Part shown: in pieces, positions 16,974 through 25,579 of the stretch
Layout: each line of letters begins with the position of its first letter
Numbering within the stretch: the stretch's first letter is position 1
Origin: Dethiobacter sp.
Lineage (GTDB): Bacteria; Bacillota; Dethiobacteria; Dethiobacterales; Dethiobacteraceae
DNA: 64,000 nt
Assembly: GCA_020725465.1 (NCBI GenBank)
Contig: DYEY01000061.1
Span: forward strand, 1 to 64,000
Direction of reading: 5' to 3'
Notes under the pieces: generated by a model
Seen by the model: only the letters and a program-made list of their open reading frames with translations
The model's database searches: none
What the model was told of the DNA's origin: nothing
Program-made: the position numbers and the translations under genes

Positions 16974-17987
16974 TTAAACCGTTTTCCCGCCGCCCGCCTC
17001 AATCTCCTCAAAATAATGGCAGGCGACCAGGTGGCCGTTTGCCAGGTGCCCGCCCCCTCTCAGCTCCGGGATTTCTTCCCGGCACCTGTCTTTGACATAC
17101 AGGCAGCGGGTGTGGAAGCGGCAGCCGGCGGGAGGGTTGATGGGTGACGGAACGTCCCCTTTCAGTATGATGCGCTGCCTTTGCCGTCCCTTCTCCGGAT
17201 TGGGCACCGGTATGGCGGAGAGCAACGCCCTGGTATAAGGGTGCCGGGAATTTTCAAATAACGATACTTTGTCGGCGATTTCCACAATATGCCCCAGGTA
17301 CATTACCATTATCCGGTCTGAAATATGCCGGACCACTCCCAGGTCGTGTGAAATGAAAAGATAGGTCAGTTTAAACTCTTTTTGCAGCTTTTTCAAAAGA
17401 TTAAGCACCTGGGCCCGGATCGACACGTCCAGTGCCGAGACCGGCTCATCGCAGATAATCAGCTTCGGGTTTAAGGACAAAGCCCGGGCGATGCCGACGC
17501 GCTGTCTCTGGCCGCCACTGAATTCGTGGGGAAAGCGATCCGCCTGGTAGGCGGCCAGCCCCACCTTCTCCAATAGCTCTATGGCGCGGGCCCTCCTTTC
17601 CTCCCTGGGCAGGATGTTCTGGATCTGCATGGCTTCCTCCAGAACTTTTACTATGGTCTGGCGTGGATTTATGGAAGCGTAAGGGTCCTGAAAGATAATC
17701 TGCAGGTCTTTCCGCACTTTCCTCATTTCGCTTTTGCTCAAAGTGACCAGGTCTTTGCCGTCGAAAACCACCGAACCCGCCGTGGGTTCCTCCAGGCGGA
17801 GTATGGCTCTGCCCGCAGACGATTTGCCGCACCCCGATTCCCCCACCAGGCTTACTGTTTCCCCTTCGTTAACGGTGAAAGAAATTCCGTCCACGGCTTT
17901 GACGTGGTTCACCGTCTGGCCGAAAACACCGCCCTTAATCGGATAGTACAGCTTCAGCCCTTCCACTTTCAAAAGTTCTTTAGACAC
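16974..17987 (-). CDS. oppF: Oligopeptide ABC transporter ATP-binding protein OppF
   Basis: The second ATPase of a peptide importer, 337 aa. Walker A is [15 protein letters not shown], the signature is FSGGQRQRVGIARAL, Walker B is LIICDEPVSALD, and the H-loop is FISHDLG. The C-terminal oligopeptide domain carries GCRFHTRCLYVKDRC, which in this family binds an Fe-S cluster or metal. It overlaps oppD by 8 nt and ends the oppCBDF transcript. Confidence 0.94.
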   Translation of the reverse strand: MSKELLKVEGLKLYYPIKGGVFGQTVNHVKAVDGISFTVNEGETVSLVGESGCGKSSAGRAILRLEEPTAGSVVFDGKDLVTLSKSEMRKVRKDLQIIFQDPYASINPRQTIVKVLEEAMQIQNILPREERRARAIELLEKVGLAAYQADRFPHEFSGGQRQRVGIARALSLNPKLIICDEPVSALDVSIRAQVLNLLKKLQKEFKLTYLFISHDLGVVRHISDRIMVMYLGHIVEIADKVSLFENSRHPYTRALLSAIPVPNPEKGRQRQRIILKGDVPSPINPPAGCRFHTRCLYVKDRCREEIPELRGGGHLANGHLVACHYFEEIEAGGGKTV

Positions 17988-18993
17988 CGGAAAAGGTCAC
18001 CTCCTTCTGACCTTTCCAGCCGGTGGCATAAATCCAGCACCTCACCAGCCTGCCGTCTGCCAAAGCCAATAAATCCGGGAGCTGCCTGGAGCAGATTTCT
18101 TCGGCGTAGGGGCAGCGGGGGGTAAAACGGCAACCCGCGGGCATCTCAGCCGGACTTGGCACAGTCCCCCTGATGGCTGCCAGTTCTTCCCTGTCCACAT
18201 CATGGCGGGGCAGAGAGTTAAACAGGCCCACCGTATAGGGATGCCGGGGGGCGGTGAACAGGGTATACGCATCCGCATACTCCACGATGCCGCCGCAATA
18301 CATCACCGCCACGTAATTGCAGGTTTCTGCCACGATCCCCAGGTCATGGGTAATGATAACCACGGACATATGGAGCCTGGTCTGCAGCTCTTTGATCAGC
18401 TCCAGAATCTGGGCCTGGATGGTCACGTCCAGGGCAGTTGTGGGTTCGTCGGCGATAAGAAGTTCGGGCGTGCAGGCCAAGGCCATGGCAATCATAACCC
18501 GCTGGCGCATGCCCCCGGACAGCTCGAAGGGATACTGGTGTATTCTTTTCTCCGGAGTAGGAATCCCCACCATTTTCAGCATCCCGATGGACTGAGTGAA
18601 AGCCTCCCGCTTGCTCATGTTCTGGTGCACCTGGAAGGATTCCCTCAGCTGCTCGCCGATGGTAAACACCGGGTTGAGTGAGGTCATCGGTTCCTGGAAA
18701 ATCATTGATATCTGGTTGCCACGGATCTTCAGCATGTCCTTTTCGGTTTTCTTCAGGATGTCCTCGCCTTTAAAAATTATCTCCCCGCCGATTATCCTGC
18801 CAGGTCTTGGAATAAGCCGCAGGACCGACAGGGCCATTACGCTTTTGCCGCACCCGGACTCACCCACCACACCGATGGTTTCGCCCCGCGGTACGGACAG
18901 GGTTACGCCGTCCACCGCCTTTACCTCGCCCTCTTCGGTAAAAAACGACGTTTTCAGATCTCTTATGGCCAGCAAAGTGTTGTTTTTCTCCAA
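17980..18993 (-). CDS. oppD: Oligopeptide ABC transporter ATP-binding protein OppD
   Basis: The first ATPase, 337 aa: Walker [13 protein letters not shown], signature [15 protein letters not shown], Walker [14 protein letters not shown]-loop IITHDLG and the C-terminal cysteine patch [15 protein letters not shown]. The TTG at 18993 follows GAGGTG with normal spacing; an in-frame TTG at 19020 lies upstream. It is translated directly after oppB. Confidence 0.93.
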
Positions 18994-19024
18994 AATACGC
19001 ACCTCTTTTTCCGCCCGCAAGCTA

Positions 19025-19945
19025 TTAGAACAACTCCATGCGCTTGTTCAGATAACGGTAAGAAATATCCACCAGCAGATTTACGGTCACAAAGGTCAGG
19101 GCAAATACCAGTACAACCCCCTGCACCACCGGGAAGTCCCGGGAGCTGATGGCCTGAATGGCCAGCCTGCCCATGCCGTTGATGGCAAAGACCGTCTCCG
19201 TTACCACCGTGCCGGACAGCAGCGCGCCCAGCTCAAGACCCACCACCGTCACTACCGGTATCAAAGCGTTTTTGAGGGCATGCCGGTAAATGACTATCCG
19301 CTCGGGCAACCCTTTGGCCCTGGCGGTCCGGATATAATCCTGGTTGATTACGTCCAGCATGCTGGACCGGGTCATCCTGGCAATAATAGCAGCGCCCGAT
19401 GTGCCCAGGGTAATAACCGGCAGAATGGCCTGCTGCCAGGTTCCCCAGCCCGACGGCGGCACCAGCATCAGCTGTACCGCAATATACTTTATCAGCATCA
19501 GGCCCAGCCAGAAACTGGGCATGGACAACCCGAACAAGGCCGCCACCATCACCAGGGTATCGTCCGGTTTATATTGTCGGACCGCCGAAATAACCCCGGC
19601 GGTTAGTCCGATCAGGCAACTTACGGTCAGGCTCATAAAAGCCAGCCTGAAGGTGACTTTATACCTTATTTTAATTTCGTCCAGCACAGGCCGGCTGCTG
19701 CGTATCGATTGCCCCAGGTCTCCCCGTACCAGCCTGCCTATGTACTTAAAATACTGAACCGGAATAGGGTCGTTTAGCCCCAGCCTTTCCCGCAAAGCTT
19801 CCACCTGGGCCGGCGGCGCCGCTTCCCCGGCGATAATCTGGGCCGGATCTCCCGGGATGAGATGCATCAGGGAAAAAACCAGGATGGTAACACCTATGAC
19901 TACCGGCACCGCCTGCAGCAGCCTGCGAATGATAAAGGTAAGCAT
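19025..19945 (-). CDS. oppB: Oligopeptide/dipeptide ABC transporter permease OppB
   Basis: A 306-aa permease with six membrane segments. The N-terminal signature RRLLQAVPVVIGVTILVFSLMHLIPGDPA is typical of DppB/OppB, and the EAA loop is seen as IRTARAKGLPERIVIYRHALKNALIPVV. It pairs with OppC, 12 nt upstream in the operon, to form the channel. Substrate (peptide, or nickel-chelate in some relatives) is not defined by sequence. Confidence 0.93.
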   Translation of the reverse strand: MLTFIIRRLLQAVPVVIGVTILVFSLMHLIPGDPAQIIAGEAAPPAQVEALRERLGLNDPIPVQYFKYIGRLVRGDLGQSIRSSRPVLDEIKIRYKVTFRLAFMSLTVSCLIGLTAGVISAVRQYKPDDTLVMVAALFGLSMPSFWLGLMLIKYIAVQLMLVPPSGWGTWQQAILPVITLGTSGAAIIARMTRSSMLDVINQDYIRTARAKGLPERIVIYRHALKNALIPVVTVVGLELGALLSGTVVTETVFAINGMGRLAIQAISSRDFPVVQGVVLVFALTFVTVNLLVDISYRYLNKRMELF

Positions 19946-19957
19946 TCTCCCGACCCC

Positions 19958-20851
19958 CTATGCTTTCAGCCTGGGATCGTAGGCATCTCTCAGGCCGTCG
20001 CCGAAAATATTAAACGATAATACCACAGAGACGATGGCCAGCCCCGGGAAGAGCGCGGTGTGGGGATGGTCATACATATAGCTGCGGGCCTGGCTCAGCA
20101 TCGCCCCCCATTCGGGGGTGGGAGGTTTGGGTCCGAGCCCGAGAAAAGACAGGGCGCTGGCGATGAGAATGGAGATGGCAATGCGGATGGTCGCCTGCAC
20201 AATAATGGGCGAAAGGATATTGGGCAGGATGTGCCGGAAGATAATGCGCAAATCGCTGGCGCCCAGGGCCCGTACCGCATCAATGTACTCCAGTTTGCGT
20301 ACAGCCATGGTGGAGCCGCGTACAATCCTGGCAAAGGAGGGTATGGAAAAAACGCCCACCGCTATAATTAAATTTCTGACGCTTCCTCCCAGCACGCTGA
20401 CCAGTGAGAGCGCCAGCAGGATACCGGGAAAAGCCAGCAGCACGTCAATGCACCTCATCAGGACCGTATCAAGCATCCGGCCGTAATATCCCGATAAAAT
20501 GCCAAGGGGGATGCCAATGAGGGCTCCCACCGTAACCGATGAAAAGCCAATGGTAAGGGTGATGGACATGCCGTGAACAATACGGGTGAAAACATCTCTC
20601 CCGTTATGGTCGGTGCCCAGCCAGTGCGTGGTGGAAGGGGCAAGCAGTATTTTTGAGTAGTCCACCTCAAATGGGTCGTGCACGGTTAAGAGGGGACCCA
20701 CAACGGCAACTATGATAAAGAATAAAATCAGATAGCCGCCGATAAGCGCCCCCCTGTTCTTGCTGATTTTTTTATAAAATGCAGATATGCCGGAAATAAA
20801 AGTCCCTGTACCCTGAGGAGAAACCGGAATCTCAGCGGCCGTTTTATTCAT
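19958..20851 (-). CDS. oppC: Oligopeptide/dipeptide ABC transporter permease OppC
   Basis: A 297-aa permease with a cytoplasmic N-terminus, six membrane segments, the motif LLGTDHNGRDVFTRI-type segment (HWLGTDHNGRDVFTRIVHG) and the EAA loop YIDAVRALGASDLRIIFRHILPN. The ATG at 20851 fits AAAGGA better than the ATG at 20860. It is the first gene of the oppCBDF operon, opposite to oppA. Confidence 0.93.
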   Translation of the reverse strand: MNKTAAEIPVSPQGTGTFISGISAFYKKISKNRGALIGGYLILFFIIVAVVGPLLTVHDPFEVDYSKILLAPSTTHWLGTDHNGRDVFTRIVHGMSITLTIGFSSVTVGALIGIPLGILSGYYGRMLDTVLMRCIDVLLAFPGILLALSLVSVLGGSVRNLIIAVGVFSIPSFARIVRGSTMAVRKLEYIDAVRALGASDLRIIFRHILPNILSPIIVQATIRIAISILIASALSFLGLGPKPPTPEWGAMLSQARSYMYDHPHTALFPGLAIVSVVLSFNIFGDGLRDAYDPRLKA

Positions 20852-20896
20852 TGCATCCATCCTTTCAGAAAATAGTACTCAGCGAATGGCTGTGGT

Positions 20897-20925
20897 GTTA
20901 TAACAATATTTCACCGTAGTGATAA
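20897..20925 (-). promoter_or_regulatory. Predicted sigma-A promoter of oppCBDF
   Basis: TTATCA (-35, 20920-20925) and TATAAC (-10, 20897-20902) are 17 bp apart on the minus strand, 46 nt upstream of the oppC start. Confidence 0.55.
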
Positions 20926-21021
20926 TTGCCTTGATAGAGTTTTTTTCTCTGAAAAAAATTCCAGGATATATTTTTTTTGGGTCATTTATAGTATAATTGA
21001 AAGTGTTGCTTTTTTGTAGCC

Positions 21022-21052
21022 TTTTTTTGCTTTACCCGAAAAAGCAAAAAAA
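21022..21052 (+). promoter_or_regulatory. Hairpin in the oppA leader
   Basis: A perfect 12-bp stem (TTTTTTTGCTTT at 21022-21033 with its complement at 21041-21052) with a 7-nt loop, between a TATAAT at 20992-20997 and the oppA start. It lacks a 3' U-run, so it is not an ordinary terminator; mRNA stabilisation or attenuation is possible. Confidence 0.4.
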
Positions 21053-21111
21053 CCTTAGCCGGCAAAGCACACACCGGGATTTAAACAAACCAAAAAGGGG
21101 GAAAGTCAAAA

Positions 21112-22707
21112 GTGGTAAAAAGGAAAAAGCTGTTCCTGGTTGTCAGCCTCTTGGTGATCCTGCTGTTGCTGGCGGCATGCGGGCAGAAACCGGCGCCGGC
21201 CCCGGGTCCGGCGGCTCCGGATAAGCCGGCTCCGGGCGGAGACCTTGTAATGGCCCTCCTGTCCGATGCCGTAACTCTTGATCCGCACACCGGCAACGAT
21301 GTCCCGTCATCCAACGTTACTTACAACCTTTACGAAACATTGGTCATTTTTGACAAAAACAATGTGCTTCAGCCGCTGCTCGCCACCGAATGGAAAGCGC
21401 TCGACGACACCACCTGGGAGTTTATCCTGCGCAAAGGGGTTAAATTCCACGACGGCACCGATTTTAACGCCCATGCCGTCAAGGCCACCTTCGACCGCCT
21501 GCTGGACCCGGCCATTGCTTCCCAGCGGCTGTTTCTGTTCAGCATGATCGAGGAAGTAACTGTGATAGATGACTATACGGTCCGCTTTAAGACCAAGTTC
21601 CCGTTCGCCCCGCTGCCGGCCCATCTGGCACACAACGGCGGCGGCATCATCAGCATCGAAGCCATCAAGAAAGATTACGAGGAAATGGCGGCCGGCAAGA
21701 AGCCCGGGTCATACCTGTCGCAGAACCCTGTGGGGACAGGTTTCTTCAGGCTTGAAAGCTGGACACCCGGCAACCAGCTTAAACTGGTCCGCAATGAAGA
21801 CTACTGGGGCCAGAAGCCCAAGCTGGAGAGCGTGACTTTTAAGGTAGTCCCGGAAAACCTCACCCGCCTTTCCGAGCTGGAAACCGGCTACGCCCACATC
21901 GCAGATCCTATCCAGCCCAGTGACGTGAAGCGGGTGGCCAGTATGCCGGGCGCCTACCTGCACCGCAAGTCGGCCACCAGCCTGGCTTATGTGGGTTTCA
22001 ACTGCCAGAAAGCCCCCTTTAATGATGTGCGCGTCCGCCAGGCCATTTCCATGGCTATCAATAAGATGGACATTGTGGACGGCATCTACAGGGGAACCGC
22101 CATCCCGGCGGTAGGGCCCATCGCCCCCGGCGTGTTCGGTTACGACCCTTCTGTTAAGTCCATACCTTTCGATAAGGAAAGGGCCAAACAGCTGCTGGCA
22201 GAAGCCGGTTATGAAAAAGGGTTCAGCACCACCATCTGGACCAACGACAACCCGGCCCGTATCCAGATTGCCGAATATATCCAGTCCAAGCTGCGCGAGT
22301 TTAACATCACCGTGACCATTGAAGTCATGGAGTGGGGTGCCTACCTGGACAGCACCGGCGAGGGCAAGCACGACATGTTCATCCTCGGCTGGTCTACCCC
22401 CACTCTGGACGGCGACTATGCCATGTACGCCGCCCTCTTCCATTCCTCCAACCAGGGGAAAGCGGGCAACCGCAGCTTCTTTAAGGATGAAAAAGTAGAT
22501 GAACTGCTGGACAAGGGCCGCCAGGAACCCGACCCGGCCAAGCGGCTGGCCTACTACAGGGAAGCCCAGGAAAGACTGGTAGACCTGGCCCCCATGCTTT
22601 ACCTCATTCACATCGAAGACCTCACCGGCGTCAGCACTGCGGTGAAGGGCTTTGATTCCACTCCGGCGCGGATGTTCCTGTTAAAGGACGTTTACATCGA
22701 GCAGTAG
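21112..22707 (+). CDS. oppA: Oligopeptide ABC transporter substrate-binding lipoprotein OppA
   Basis: A 531-aa SBP family 5 lipoprotein. The signal peptide ends in LAAC (about residue 22), followed by a Pro-rich tether. The binding-protein signatures SDAVTLDPHTGND, WEFILRKGVKFHDGTDFNAHAVKATFDRLL and NPVGTGFFRLESW are clear. It starts with GTG 21112 behind AAGGGGGAAAG and is divergent from oppCBDF, supplying that transporter. The preferred peptide or chelate is unknown. Confidence 0.94.
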   Translation: MVKRKKLFLVVSLLVILLLLAACGQKPAPAPGPAAPDKPAPGGDLVMALLSDAVTLDPHTGNDVPSSNVTYNLYETLVIFDKNNVLQPLLATEWKALDDTTWEFILRKGVKFHDGTDFNAHAVKATFDRLLDPAIASQRLFLFSMIEEVTVIDDYTVRFKTKFPFAPLPAHLAHNGGGIISIEAIKKDYEEMAAGKKPGSYLSQNPVGTGFFRLESWTPGNQLKLVRNEDYWGQKPKLESVTFKVVPENLTRLSELETGYAHIADPIQPSDVKRVASMPGAYLHRKSATSLAYVGFNCQKAPFNDVRVRQAISMAINKMDIVDGIYRGTAIPAVGPIAPGVFGYDPSVKSIPFDKERAKQLLAEAGYEKGFSTTIWTNDNPARIQIAEYIQSKLREFNITVTIEVMEWGAYLDSTGEGKHDMFILGWSTPTLDGDYAMYAALFHSSNQGKAGNRSFFKDEKVDELLDKGRQEPDPAKRLAYYREAQERLVDLAPMLYLIHIEDLTGVSTAVKGFDSTPARMFLLKDVYIEQ

Positions 22708-22766: not shown

Positions 22767-23063
22767 CTAAAGGGAGTAATCCTCCAGGGTGCAGTCACAG
22801 GGGCCCCCTTTGCGGTTCAGCCTGCTCATCAGAATAGCATAGGCGCATCCCACCCCGGGACGGACGCTGACGGCTCCACAGGCGCAGTTCCGGGCACAGG
22901 CACCGCACTCCATACAGGCATCACGGTCCTGCAGGGTGACGGGGCCTTTCCCCGTGCCGGCAAAAACACCCCGTGGGCAAACTTCAATGCAGGTCCCGCA
23001 ACCGTTGCACCTGGCCGCATCCAACTTCAGGGTAACCACGTTCTTCAGGTAGCGCAGTTTCAT
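22767..23063 (-). CDS. hgcB: Mercury methylation ferredoxin HgcB
   Basis: The 2[4Fe-4S] partner of HgcA, thought to reduce the corrinoid and possibly hand over Hg(II). 98 aa (known HgcB about 95). The first cluster motif is CNGCGTCIEVCPRGVF (C19-C29), the second is the HgcB hallmark CMECGACARNC (C50-C60). C73 in GVGCAYAI falls exactly at the conserved lone cysteine position described for HgcB. The C-terminal cysteine pair is CDC (C89, C91) instead of the usual adjacent CC. An extra C62 replaces the residue after the usual proline site. ATG 23063 has AAGGAG 7 nt upstream. It lies 43 nt after hgcA and ends at a strong terminator. Confidence 0.94.
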   Translation of the reverse strand: MKLRYLKNVVTLKLDAARCNGCGTCIEVCPRGVFAGTGKGPVTLQDRDACMECGACARNCACGAVSVRPGVGCAYAILMSRLNRKGGPCDCTLEDYSL

Positions 23064-23106
23064 CTTTACTCTCCTTGTTTTTTTTACTTGCCGGCTGATG
23101 TCTGAG

Positions 23107-24234
23107 TTACAGGAAAAAACCGGTGATAATGCCGCAAAGGCCCGCTCCTGAGGCAACAATAATGGCGGGCAGCGCGAAATTCATTTCTTTAAGTACCCCT
23201 GACAGGGAAGTGTAAGCTGTGGAACCGGTAAAGTTCAGGGCAAGAAAAGCGGACGCCGCCGGCAAAAACAGAAGGTACCCCACTGTCTGAACCGCGCCGG
23301 TTACGGCAGCGAACCCAAAAATATAAACAAGGGACCACAACATTCCAAGCAGCCAGCCTTTCCAGGCAAAAGCCCTGCCCGGAATAAACGGCAGCAGGGC
23401 GGGCACCAGGACTGCTCCGGCCAGGATAGCGCCGAGGAAAGGCACAAGGTTTAAAGCTGTGCCGGCCATAAGCAGCGCCAAAGAAACACCGGTTCCTTTC
23501 AGCCAGGCAGCGGTGGCGTTAAGTCCCAGCAGCGCCAGTGCCAGTACCAGTACCGGCCCGGCCAGGTGCGCCAGTTCCACCGGGACCAGCGCCAGACGCT
23601 CCCTGAAGCCAAAGCCCGCCTGTCTCATCTCCGGCGTGGCTTTGTAGCCTGACCGCAGGAAGGCCGGAACATCCGCCGCCCGCACAGGGCCAAAGACAAC
23701 CCTGAACCCGGATTGTTTCTGCACCTCGTGCGCCGCCACTCCCGGAGCGGCCAGCTGGGGCAGGATTATTGTCCGGTGGGAAACGATTTCCCGCAGGTTC
23801 ACCTGGGCAATGCGCCGTACCACTTCGGTGGTGCCGAAGGTGCCCTTACCCGCGGCACACCAGACATTGATCCCGTTTGTGTCGACTACCATCAGCCAGG
23901 CGTCCAACCCGGACAGCTCCCGGCGCAGGGAATCAAAGCTCAGCTTGTAGTTGGCCGTTACCAGCACCGGGGAGTCAGGGCCGGGAGTGCCCACCGCGTA
24001 GAGGCCCGGCGCTACGCGGTAATTCATTCTGCCCATCCCCCAGCGCGCTTTCCAGGCTCCGGTAATATCACGCCAATTTAGCCTGGTATCAGCCCTGGCT
24101 ACCGGGCCAGCCGGCGTGCCTGCCTTCTCACCCTGCCAGGAGCAGTTCCCGGATTGGCCGCTCCCTGTGTCTTCCTGTCCCGGTCCCATTCCGCAACAGG
24201 TCCATGACATGCACTTTTTTTCATCCCTTTTCAT
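23107..24234 (-). CDS. hgcA: Mercury methylation corrinoid protein HgcA
   Basis: The corrinoid membrane protein that transfers a methyl group to Hg(II), making methylmercury. The diagnostic cap-helix motif NVWCAAGK is at residues 123-130, with C126 the predicted lower-axial cobalt ligand. The cytoplasmic corrinoid domain (about 50-212) resembles the CdhD/CFeSP large-subunit fold, and five membrane segments follow (about 214-236, 249-284, 289-313, 318-346, 352-374). Length, 375 aa, is slightly over the usual 330-350 because of an N-terminal extension with four cysteines (C8, C13, C14, C31). ATG 24234 has GGAGG 8 nt upstream. It is the first gene of a two-gene operon with its own promoter and palindrome. 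Confidence 0.96.
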   Translation of the reverse strand: MKRDEKKCMSWTCCGMGPGQEDTGSGQSGNCSWQGEKAGTPAGPVARADTRLNWRDITGAWKARWGMGRMNYRVAPGLYAVGTPGPDSPVLVTANYKLSFDSLRRELSGLDAWLMVVDTNGINVWCAAGKGTFGTTEVVRRIAQVNLREIVSHRTIILPQLAAPGVAAHEVQKQSGFRVVFGPVRAADVPAFLRSGYKATPEMRQAGFGFRERLALVPVELAHLAGPVLVLALALLGLNATAAWLKGTGVSLALLMAGTALNLVPFLGAILAGAVLVPALLPFIPGRAFAWKGWLLGMLWSLVYIFGFAAVTGAVQTVGYLLFLPAASAFLALNFTGSTAYTSLSGVLKEMNFALPAIIVASGAGLCGIITGFFL

Positions 24235-24293
24235 CTTTTAAACCTCCCTGCAGCTCCGGCTGCCTGATTGATTAACGGCACAGAAGGGACATT

Positions 24294-24336
24294 TGTATTA
24301 TACATCTATTGTATAATACACGTGTTTCGCCGTCAA
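24294..24336 (-). promoter_or_regulatory. hgcAB promoter overlapped by a perfect palindromic operator
   Basis: On the minus strand TTGACG (24331-24336) and TACAAT (24308-24313) are 17 bp apart, a near-consensus sigma-A promoter starting transcription near 24301. A palindrome TGTATTATAC-N7-GTATAATACA (24294-24320) covers the -10 box and start point. Such placement predicts repression by a dimeric regulator. An ArsR-like regulator of hgcAB has been reported in another methylator; no regulator gene is adjacent here. Confidence 0.75.
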
Positions 24337-24414: not shown

Positions 24415-25035
24415 CTAATCAGGCAGCTGTCTTTGGTGGTCACGGTTGGAAATCCGGTCAGTGTCCTCCACATAGCCCAAGGTTTCGTCGTCTTCCCCCA
24501 CATCTTCGTAATAAACGTGAGGCAGCTTGTTGTAGAGGGCCACGTCCTGCCAGGCGTCTTCACCGTCATAGCCGGTGTAATCCTTTTCGTCCAGGAAGGA
24601 ACGGGCGAAAGGCGACATCAGGTTCAGCTCTTCTATAGGCCGGGGGTAGTCGTGGGGGACTCCCTCGGCGCGCCGTTTGCAGCTGATGCAAAACCCGGTA
24701 TAGGGGACGGCCTCCAGCCTTTCCTCCGGGATTTTTGTCCCGCAGTTCTCGCAAAGGCCGTATTTACCGGTTTTAATTTTCAAAAGGGCTTCTTCCACTT
24801 TTTCCAGGATAAGCAGGTTCTTCTCGTGCAGGGATATATCCTTGCCCCGCTCATAATTCTCGCTGGCTGTATCGGCCGGGTGGTTGTCCACCATGGACAG
24901 TTCCTGGGTGGCGTCACGGAGCGATACCTGCTTTTGCAGCCCTTCCGCGGTATCAAGCTGGGCGAGCAGCTCTTCCCTCATTTTTTCAAGCTGCCGACGG
25001 CGGGTTATGTTGACACGTTCTGCGTTGTCGGGCAA
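24415..25035 (-). CDS. YteA-family TraR/DksA-type zinc-finger protein
   Basis: About 206 aa. An N-terminal coiled-coil (LEKMREELLAQLDTAEGLQKQ), the DNHPADTASENYERGKDISL motif of the YteA family, and a four-cysteine zinc finger (CENCGTKIPEERLEAVPYTGFCISCK), followed by an acidic C-terminal region. YteA proteins are conserved in spore formers, and some are sporulation-induced; the molecular role is unknown. The TTG at 25035 follows AAGGGGG and lies just after the nitroreductase stop; the open frame to 25056 would overlap it. Confidence 0.88.
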   Translation of the reverse strand: MPDNAERVNITRRRQLEKMREELLAQLDTAEGLQKQVSLRDATQELSMVDNHPADTASENYERGKDISLHEKNLLILEKVEEALLKIKTGKYGLCENCGTKIPEERLEAVPYTGFCISCKRRAEGVPHDYPRPIEELNLMSPFARSFLDEKDYTGYDGEDAWQDVALYNKLPHVYYEDVGEDDETLGYVEDTDRISNRDHQRQLPD

Positions 25036-25036
25036 A

Positions 25037-25579
25037 TCAGCGTCCCCCTTCGGCAATTATGGTCACAATGTCTTCCACCGCCCGGCGGGCCGGAACCTGC
25101 GCTTCCCGGCCCGCCGGGTGTCCCAGCGGCACCATGGCCACCGGCACCATAGCGGGGTCGTCGATAGCCAGGGCAGCGGCCACCATTTTCTCGTTGAAGG
25201 CGCCCACCCAGCAGGCGGCCAGGCCCAGCGCGGTAGCGCCCAGCAGGATATTCTGGGTGGCGGCAGCGGTGTCCTGAAAAGCGTAGAGTGTACGCCCCCG
25301 TTCGCCGTAGGCCCGCTGTGACCGTGCCAGGTCGGCACAGACAACTATTACCACCGGAGCTCTGGCCAGCCAGAGCTGGTTCAGGGCCGCTATGGCCAGT
25401 TCCCGCTTCAGCCTTGCATCCTCCACCACATAGAAATGCCAGGGCTGGACGTTGCCGGCACTGGGCGCCATGGCCGCCGCCTCCACAAGCCGCATCACCG
25501 TGGCCCGCGGCACCGGGTCAGCGCTGAAGGAACGGATGCTGCGCCGCTCTTTTACGGCACGGAAATAATCCATGGTCAT
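25037..25579 (-). CDS. Nitroreductase-family flavoprotein
   Basis: A 180-aa FMN-dependent oxidoreductase of the nitroreductase superfamily: RRSIRSFSADPVP at the N-terminus, APSAGNVQPWHFYVV, AATQNILLGATALGLAACWVGAF, and VPLGHPAG near the end. Natural substrate unknown (nitro compounds, quinones or flavins are typical). ATG 25579 has AGGAGG 8 nt upstream. It lies directly before yteA. Confidence 0.92.
   Translation of the reverse strand: MTMDYFRAVKERRSIRSFSADPVPRATVMRLVEAAAMAPSAGNVQPWHFYVVEDARLKRELAIAALNQLWLARAPVVIVVCADLARSQRAYGERGRTLYAFQDTAAATQNILLGATALGLAACWVGAFNEKMVAAALAIDDPAMVPVAMVPLGHPAGREAQVPARRAVEDIVTIIAEGGR

Follow-up and report, generated by a model that had tools for sequence, protein, structure and literature searches.

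A mercury-methylation gene pair in Dethiobacter sp. with the candidate operator and a relic of a MarR-type regulator gene

Introduction

The genome of a Dethiobacter sp. (GCA_020725465.1) very probably holds a genuine hgcAB operon, itself probably functional, that was gained or moved within the class and from which a cis-encoded MarR-type repressor gene was deleted while its operator was kept. The operon lies in a stretch of 64,000 nucleotides at the start of contig DYEY01000061.1, called the window throughout, and its features are collected in Table 1. The hgcAB pair itself is well known and widespread: at least 579 stretches of one collection carry it, and hgcA occurs in 26 of the 98 genomes examined from the class. 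Since many genomes have the pair, finding it is in itself no great surprise. A MarR gene ahead of hgcA has been reported before, for two genomes with Dethiobacter alkaliphilus among them (PMC10349881), and this paper alone came up in a search for the MarR family together with mercury methylation and hgcA, which covered mostly non-subscription journals. No earlier report of an hgcAB operator or of the MarR cysteine signature was found in literature of that coverage. What is added here is the candidate operator, a signature of cysteines in the MarR protein, the finding that within the class this regulator occurs only with hgcA, and the probable deletion in the window's lineage.

Table 1. Features of the hgcAB region of the window, in order of position
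Feature	Position	Strand	Evidence
oppABCDF-type peptide transporter cluster	16974..22707		Pfam SBP_bac_5, ABC_tran, BPD_transp_1; empty site in relatives
Bidirectional intrinsic terminator between convergent hgcB and oppA	22718..22753		Fold z-scores
hgcB, 2x[4Fe-4S] ferredoxin HgcB, 98 aa	22767..23063	-	NCBIfam NF040864, cysteine positions, RBS
hgcA, membrane corrinoid protein HgcA, 375 aa	23107..24234	-	NCBIfam NF040863, motif and TM scan, tree
Putative relic of MarR-family gene 3' end, ~13 codons	24243..24280	-	38-nt match to locus L105; then hgcA RBS and ATG
Perfect palindromic candidate operator, TGTATTATACA-N5-TGTATAATACA	24294..24320		Overlaps -10 of hgcA promoter
hgcA promoter, TTGACG-17-TACAAT	24308..24336	-	Consensus scan; same promoter in relatives' MarR-hgcAB operons
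DksA/TraR zinc-finger (YteA-type) gene	24415..25056	-	Pfam PF01258; synteny

The hgcA and hgcB Genes and Their Products

A sequence-only reading of this DNA had placed an hgcAB pair at 22767-24234 and proposed a profile search of both proteins; both frames are there and both products exceed the NCBIfam cut-offs, HgcA with 444.6 bits (E 1.9e-133) against the curated equivalog HgcA_corrinoid NF040863 (cut-off 275) and HgcB with 110.1 bits against HgcB_ferredoxin NF040864 (cut-off 99). The source genome has one copy of hgcA. The NVWCAAGK motif, corrinoid domain and five membrane spans that had been described for HgcA were all recovered, with a motif scan locating the cap helix NVWCAAGK, invariant across a 9-sequence HgcA alignment, at residues 123-130 and its cysteine at 126 (the counterpart of Cys93 in ND132 HgcA), and hydropathy only giving five hydrophobic segments (224-242, 263-281, 295-313, 315-333, and 357-375). 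The protein also has an N-terminal Cys pair at 13-14. HgcB likewise has the two cluster motifs and the lone C73 first read from it, its eight cluster cysteines (19/22/25/29 and 50/53/56/60) forming two CxxCxxCxxxC motifs and Cys73, encoded by TGC, being exactly in place. The most likely start of hgcB is ATG 23063 (RBS AAGGAGAG) and not the TTG farther upstream with which the longest ORF begins, and 43 nt separate hgcA from hgcB.

The tail of HgcB (-GGPCDC-) contains Cys89 and Cys91 but no vicinal CC pair (GGPCDCTLEDYSL), which clade mates have. Within window positions 22767-22866 this tail is reduced to PCDC, the vicinal CC and four residues of the clade's CCGDACGCSL being gone. Several other HgcB sequences also lack the tail CC pair, which is common, not universal, and was therefore not taken as defining, and in HgcB mutants one tail Cys suffices (PMC7305189). 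Both genes are intact and stand in operon order, and the cysteines of known importance are present, namely the cap-helix Cys of HgcA and, in HgcB, those of the clusters, Cys73, and those of the tail; the operon is probably functional.

It is highly improbable that HgcA is a corrinoid protein for some other methyl transfer, related to CFeSP or to the HgcAB-like fusion proteins, and not a mercury methylator. Such a role would fit its distant similarity to the CFeSP large (gamma) subunits, which were the only convincing matches of the HgcA soluble domain in a PDB sequence search (2h9a, E 1e-13), and the literature has not settled what HgcAB natively does. However, a protein that scores far above the HgcA cut-off stays under those of the CFeSP gamma model PRK04165 (85.9 bits against 306) and of the fusion model NF043039 (211.6 bits against 285; here there are two separate genes), the cap-helix Cys and the membrane domain are present, and a CFeSP-gamma-like match is found on another contig of the genome (G000:C69). 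A tree of 44 HgcA and 8 CFeSP sequences splits the two groups at 100/100, and the grouping with CdhD/CFeSP proteins that had been named as the refuting outcome did not occur; an AU test joining the window HgcA to CFeSP (p 0.52) bears only on the point within HgcA at which CFeSP attaches. The phylogeny with Peptococcaceae sequences that had also been suggested put the protein elsewhere, in a same-class clade of 14 rows (99/89) from which Desulfosporosinus, Peptococcaceae, and Acetivibrio HgcA stand apart, and in which it pairs at 99/87 with its nearest member, the 66% identical HgcA of genome G058 (locus L105).

The host is a 2.9-Mb genome in 78 contigs and 98% complete. The spore-forming Firmicute background proposed for the operon is borne out by Spo0A (382 bits against a cut-off of 200). 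SelB is present, and neither dsrA (sulfate reduction) nor a convincing MerA was found in the source genome. A mer operon was considered and rejected: the best MerA-like protein reaches 365 bits where the cut-off is 454, adjoins a lipoate-ligase-like gene (a neighbor read by eye), and looks like a dihydrolipoamide dehydrogenase.

A Promoter and Palindrome Shared With MarR-hgcAB Operons

The promoter that had been ascribed to hgcAB matches the consensus at 10/12 positions in a scan that gave 3 matches against 1.9 expected, and taken alone this match is weak evidence. The same promoter is conserved in relatives ahead of their MarR-hgcAB operons, the -35/-10 alignment reading TTGACA...TGTATTATACAATTAATG in L105 and TTGACG...TGTATTATACAATAGATG in the window. 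A palindrome with the spacer TCTAT and perfect 11+11 arms, 0 of which are expected in shuffles, lies 59 nt from the hgcA ATG and is the sole copy in the source genome with up to 3 mismatches allowed. Used as a fixed query scored out of 22 against shuffles and coding controls, it averaged 16.96/22 in the regions preceding 26 MarR-hgcAB operons, compared with 12.35 for shuffles and 11.65 for coding controls, with p<=0.03 in 22/26 loci and a generally similar distance to the MarR gene, whereas upstream of 24 ArsR-type hgcAB operons the mean was 13.08 vs. 12.71 in shuffles. The promoter and palindromic operator that mark the MarR-hgcAB operon type are thus both found in the window (24294-24320) and, as judged by sequence, are those of MarR-hgcAB operons in the same class and in other phyla.

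Among the hgcA loci compared, for which the 80 best matches out of more than 579 were retained, a MarR gene precedes hgcAB in 35 (26 without duplicates) and an ArsR-type regulator gene precedes hgcA in 29, a Pfam scan backing both families (MarR vs. ArsR type, HTH_5). In the MarR type a CCG is almost invariant and is followed by a third Cys seven residues past the second (CC-x6-C), the three cysteines being conserved in 35/35, 34/35, and 31/35 sequences and a C-terminal CC in 28/35. Across 98 genomes of the class searched at E <= 1e-29, 15 of the 26 genomes with hgcA have the MarR gene immediately ahead of it, and none of the 72 without hgcA has this gene; the 15 genome matches all adjoin hgcA (Fisher p 4e-11, a value that overstates independence as the genomes are related). 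Loci with MarR before hgcA are also titled Aminicenantes, Acidobacteriota, Deltaproteobacteria, Atribacteria, and Halanaerobiales, and because these are mostly MAGs, misbinning could account for individual phylum labels.

A Relic of the Regulator Gene Ahead of hgcA

Directly upstream of the window hgcA there is no ORF for a CC-x6-C MarR protein, only a 38-nt relic. At positions 24243-24280 the sequence aligns without a gap to the 3'-terminal codons of the L105 MarR gene, with 32/38 nt identical, scoring 46 against a maximum of 22 in 500 shuffles, and the frame reads AVNQSGSRSCREV where the L105 MarR has AVHQSCSRCCKEE. The simplest history would be an internal deletion that removed the start and body of the MarR gene and left the promoter, the operator, and the 3' end. 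The impression of a self-contained unit given by the sequence-only reading did not fully hold up, since relatives encode a MarR regulator between promoter and hgcA, and the window keeps the promoter, the operator, and a 3' relic.

An ordinary hgcAB operon with an unrelated promoter of its own, in which the palindrome and the 38-nt similarity are coincidental and no regulator was ever present, is an improbable alternative. Four same-class hgcAB loci of the clade (L003, L005, L110, and L111) lend it something, as they also lack the MarR gene and the operator, their control regions having been lost independently or replaced. Against coincidence speak the perfection of the palindrome, the recurrence of the same site in the MarR operons of relatives, and an ungapped match that lies just ahead of the hgcA RBS and scores so far beyond shuffled sequence. 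It is very unlikely, too, that the organism has the MarR gene and the assembler dropped it. A draft of 78 contigs makes such an error conceivable, but the 98%-complete genome has no intact MarR copy of the hgcA-linked type elsewhere (best 29% identity), no long repeats were found around the insert or at the breakpoints in the scanned region, and the site is deep within a 78.6-kb contig. A probably functional hgcAB operon whose regulator gene was deleted while its operator was retained is the reading we prefer; the points counted against it are the HgcB tail, PCDC vs. CCGDACGC in the clade, the capacity of a 78-contig draft to hide assembly errors, and the operator score at the promoter of the MarR paralog on C75, which is not significant.

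The nearest MarR in the genome (G000:C75:4699-5118, L189), 29% identical and on another contig, carries a cysteine pair at each terminus (CPEDCC at the N-terminus, CC at the C-terminus). That it regulates hgcAB in trans stays a guess because it lacks the CCG motif and the operator query at its promoter is not significant (13/22, p 0.27). By eye, a SAM-methyltransferase-like gene comes after this paralog on the same strand.

Genomic Placement of the Operon

The sequence-only reading had set hgcAB between a peptide transporter and a YteA-type gene beside a strong terminator. The neighbors agree with this, an oppA-type binding protein being on one side and a DksA/TraR zinc-finger gene on the other, and the terminator is real on both strands with fold z-scores of -6.9 on the minus and -5.6 on the plus strand. 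The conserved order in the family is ileS-DUF5665-(nitroreductase)-yteA-lspA-rluD, and in most members with a readable yteA neighborhood yteA is followed directly by lspA, or by rluD where lspA was undetected. The genomes with this empty site include G011, which has the best YteA match (76%), and G009 and G002, which have hgcAB elsewhere. In the window, ~7.4 kb consisting of hgcAB and the oppABCDF cluster, with oppA convergent to hgcB, separates yteA from lspA. This neighborhood recurs at none of the hgcAB loci examined in relatives, and HgcA sequences of the window's family fall in at least three places of the tree, the AU test rejecting a single clade (p 6e-70). Given the empty yteA-lspA site in relatives, the unshared neighborhood, and the separate clades of HgcA within one family, we infer that hgcAB was gained or moved to the yteA-lspA site, beside the opp cluster, after the family diverged. 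As to a mobile-element route, no match was found in a plasmid collection or in viral contigs.

Proposed Regulation and Comparison With Known Systems

By analogy with published HgcAB work, HgcA would carry a cobamide with Cys ligation, be methylated by SAM as in the published in vitro system, and pass the methyl group to Hg(II) in a corrinoid-dependent step, while HgcB would supply electrons and its Cys73 and tail thiols would handle mercury (PMC7305189, PMC11588087). Gene order and sequence suggest that the MarR protein of relatives is a thiol/metal-sensing repressor of hgcAB, which may block the -10 and sense a thiol-reactive metal, metalloid, or redox change through CC-x6-C and the C-terminal CC. 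The window hgcAB would then be free of its repressor or be served in trans by the distant paralog on C75. We give roughly even weight to a wider proposal, that a cysteine-rich MarR repressor and a conserved operator are dedicated to hgcAB in several phyla, independently of ArsR, that the repressor senses the substrate or stress that HgcAB meets, and that the window shows a naturally occurring form of this system, deregulated or regulated in trans.

The window resembles ND132 (Pseudodesulfovibrio mercurii) and other confirmed methylators (PMC7305189, PMC11588087) in its two-gene hgcA-hgcB operon, NVWCAAGK cap helix, corrinoid domain with five TM helices, and dicluster ferredoxin with Cys73 and tail cysteines. 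It differs from them in an HgcB tail that ends in PCDC and not in a terminal CC pair, in a spore-forming host without dsrA, and in an operator of MarR and not of ArsR type. Promoter and palindrome are common to the window and the MarR-hgcAB operons, of which its nearest relative L105 (G058) has the order MarR-hgcA-hgcB, whereas the window's MarR gene appears to be down to the 38-nt relic and hgcA comes directly after the operator. ArsR-type control of hgcAB is described for ND132 (PMC10349881, citing Gionfriddo 2023). Like the MarR type, it has the gene of a small winged-helix regulator immediately ahead of hgcA, but the protein is of another family (Pfam HTH_5 vs. MarR) and the operator is not shared.

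What hgcAB natively does for the cell, and how it is controlled, are questions to which the MarR regulator gives a direct handle, as in this class it occurs only beside hgcAB and has conserved cysteines and a recognizable operator: the signal that it senses would be what the cell associates with hgcAB. The window, which keeps the operator but appears to have lost the regulator gene, offers a comparison provided by nature. If this loss makes expression constant, the lineage could form methylmercury where its relatives stay silent, and such constant expression, if true, would have a bearing on how methylation is predicted from surveys of genes.

Variant hgcAB Loci in Relatives

Three loci of the same class as the window, L008 (G009:C33), L009 (G002:C38), and L118 (G086:C45), have an in-frame UGA at the exact HgcB Cys73 codon (GVG-UGA-AYAIILGKLTG), the position at which the window has TGC (Cys). 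The HgcB frame beyond the UGA is conserved in all three, and their HgcA sequences form one clade (100/100). The fold around the UGA of L008 and L009 showed no significant structure, and therefore no SECIS is claimed from it. A selenocysteine HgcB was set aside as a novelty, since selenoprotein HgcB with GVGU is already published (Haft and Gwadz 2023, as cited in PMC11588087; PMC13188914). In L007 (G007:C18), a frameshift between the two cluster motifs breaks hgcB, which is either a draft error or decay. In the complete genome that holds L010/L157 (G022:C1), HgcA ends early at ~246 residues with an intact MarR gene upstream, and no hgcB was found behind the shortened hgcA, where a transposase-like sequence comes next; this looks like a decayed operon.
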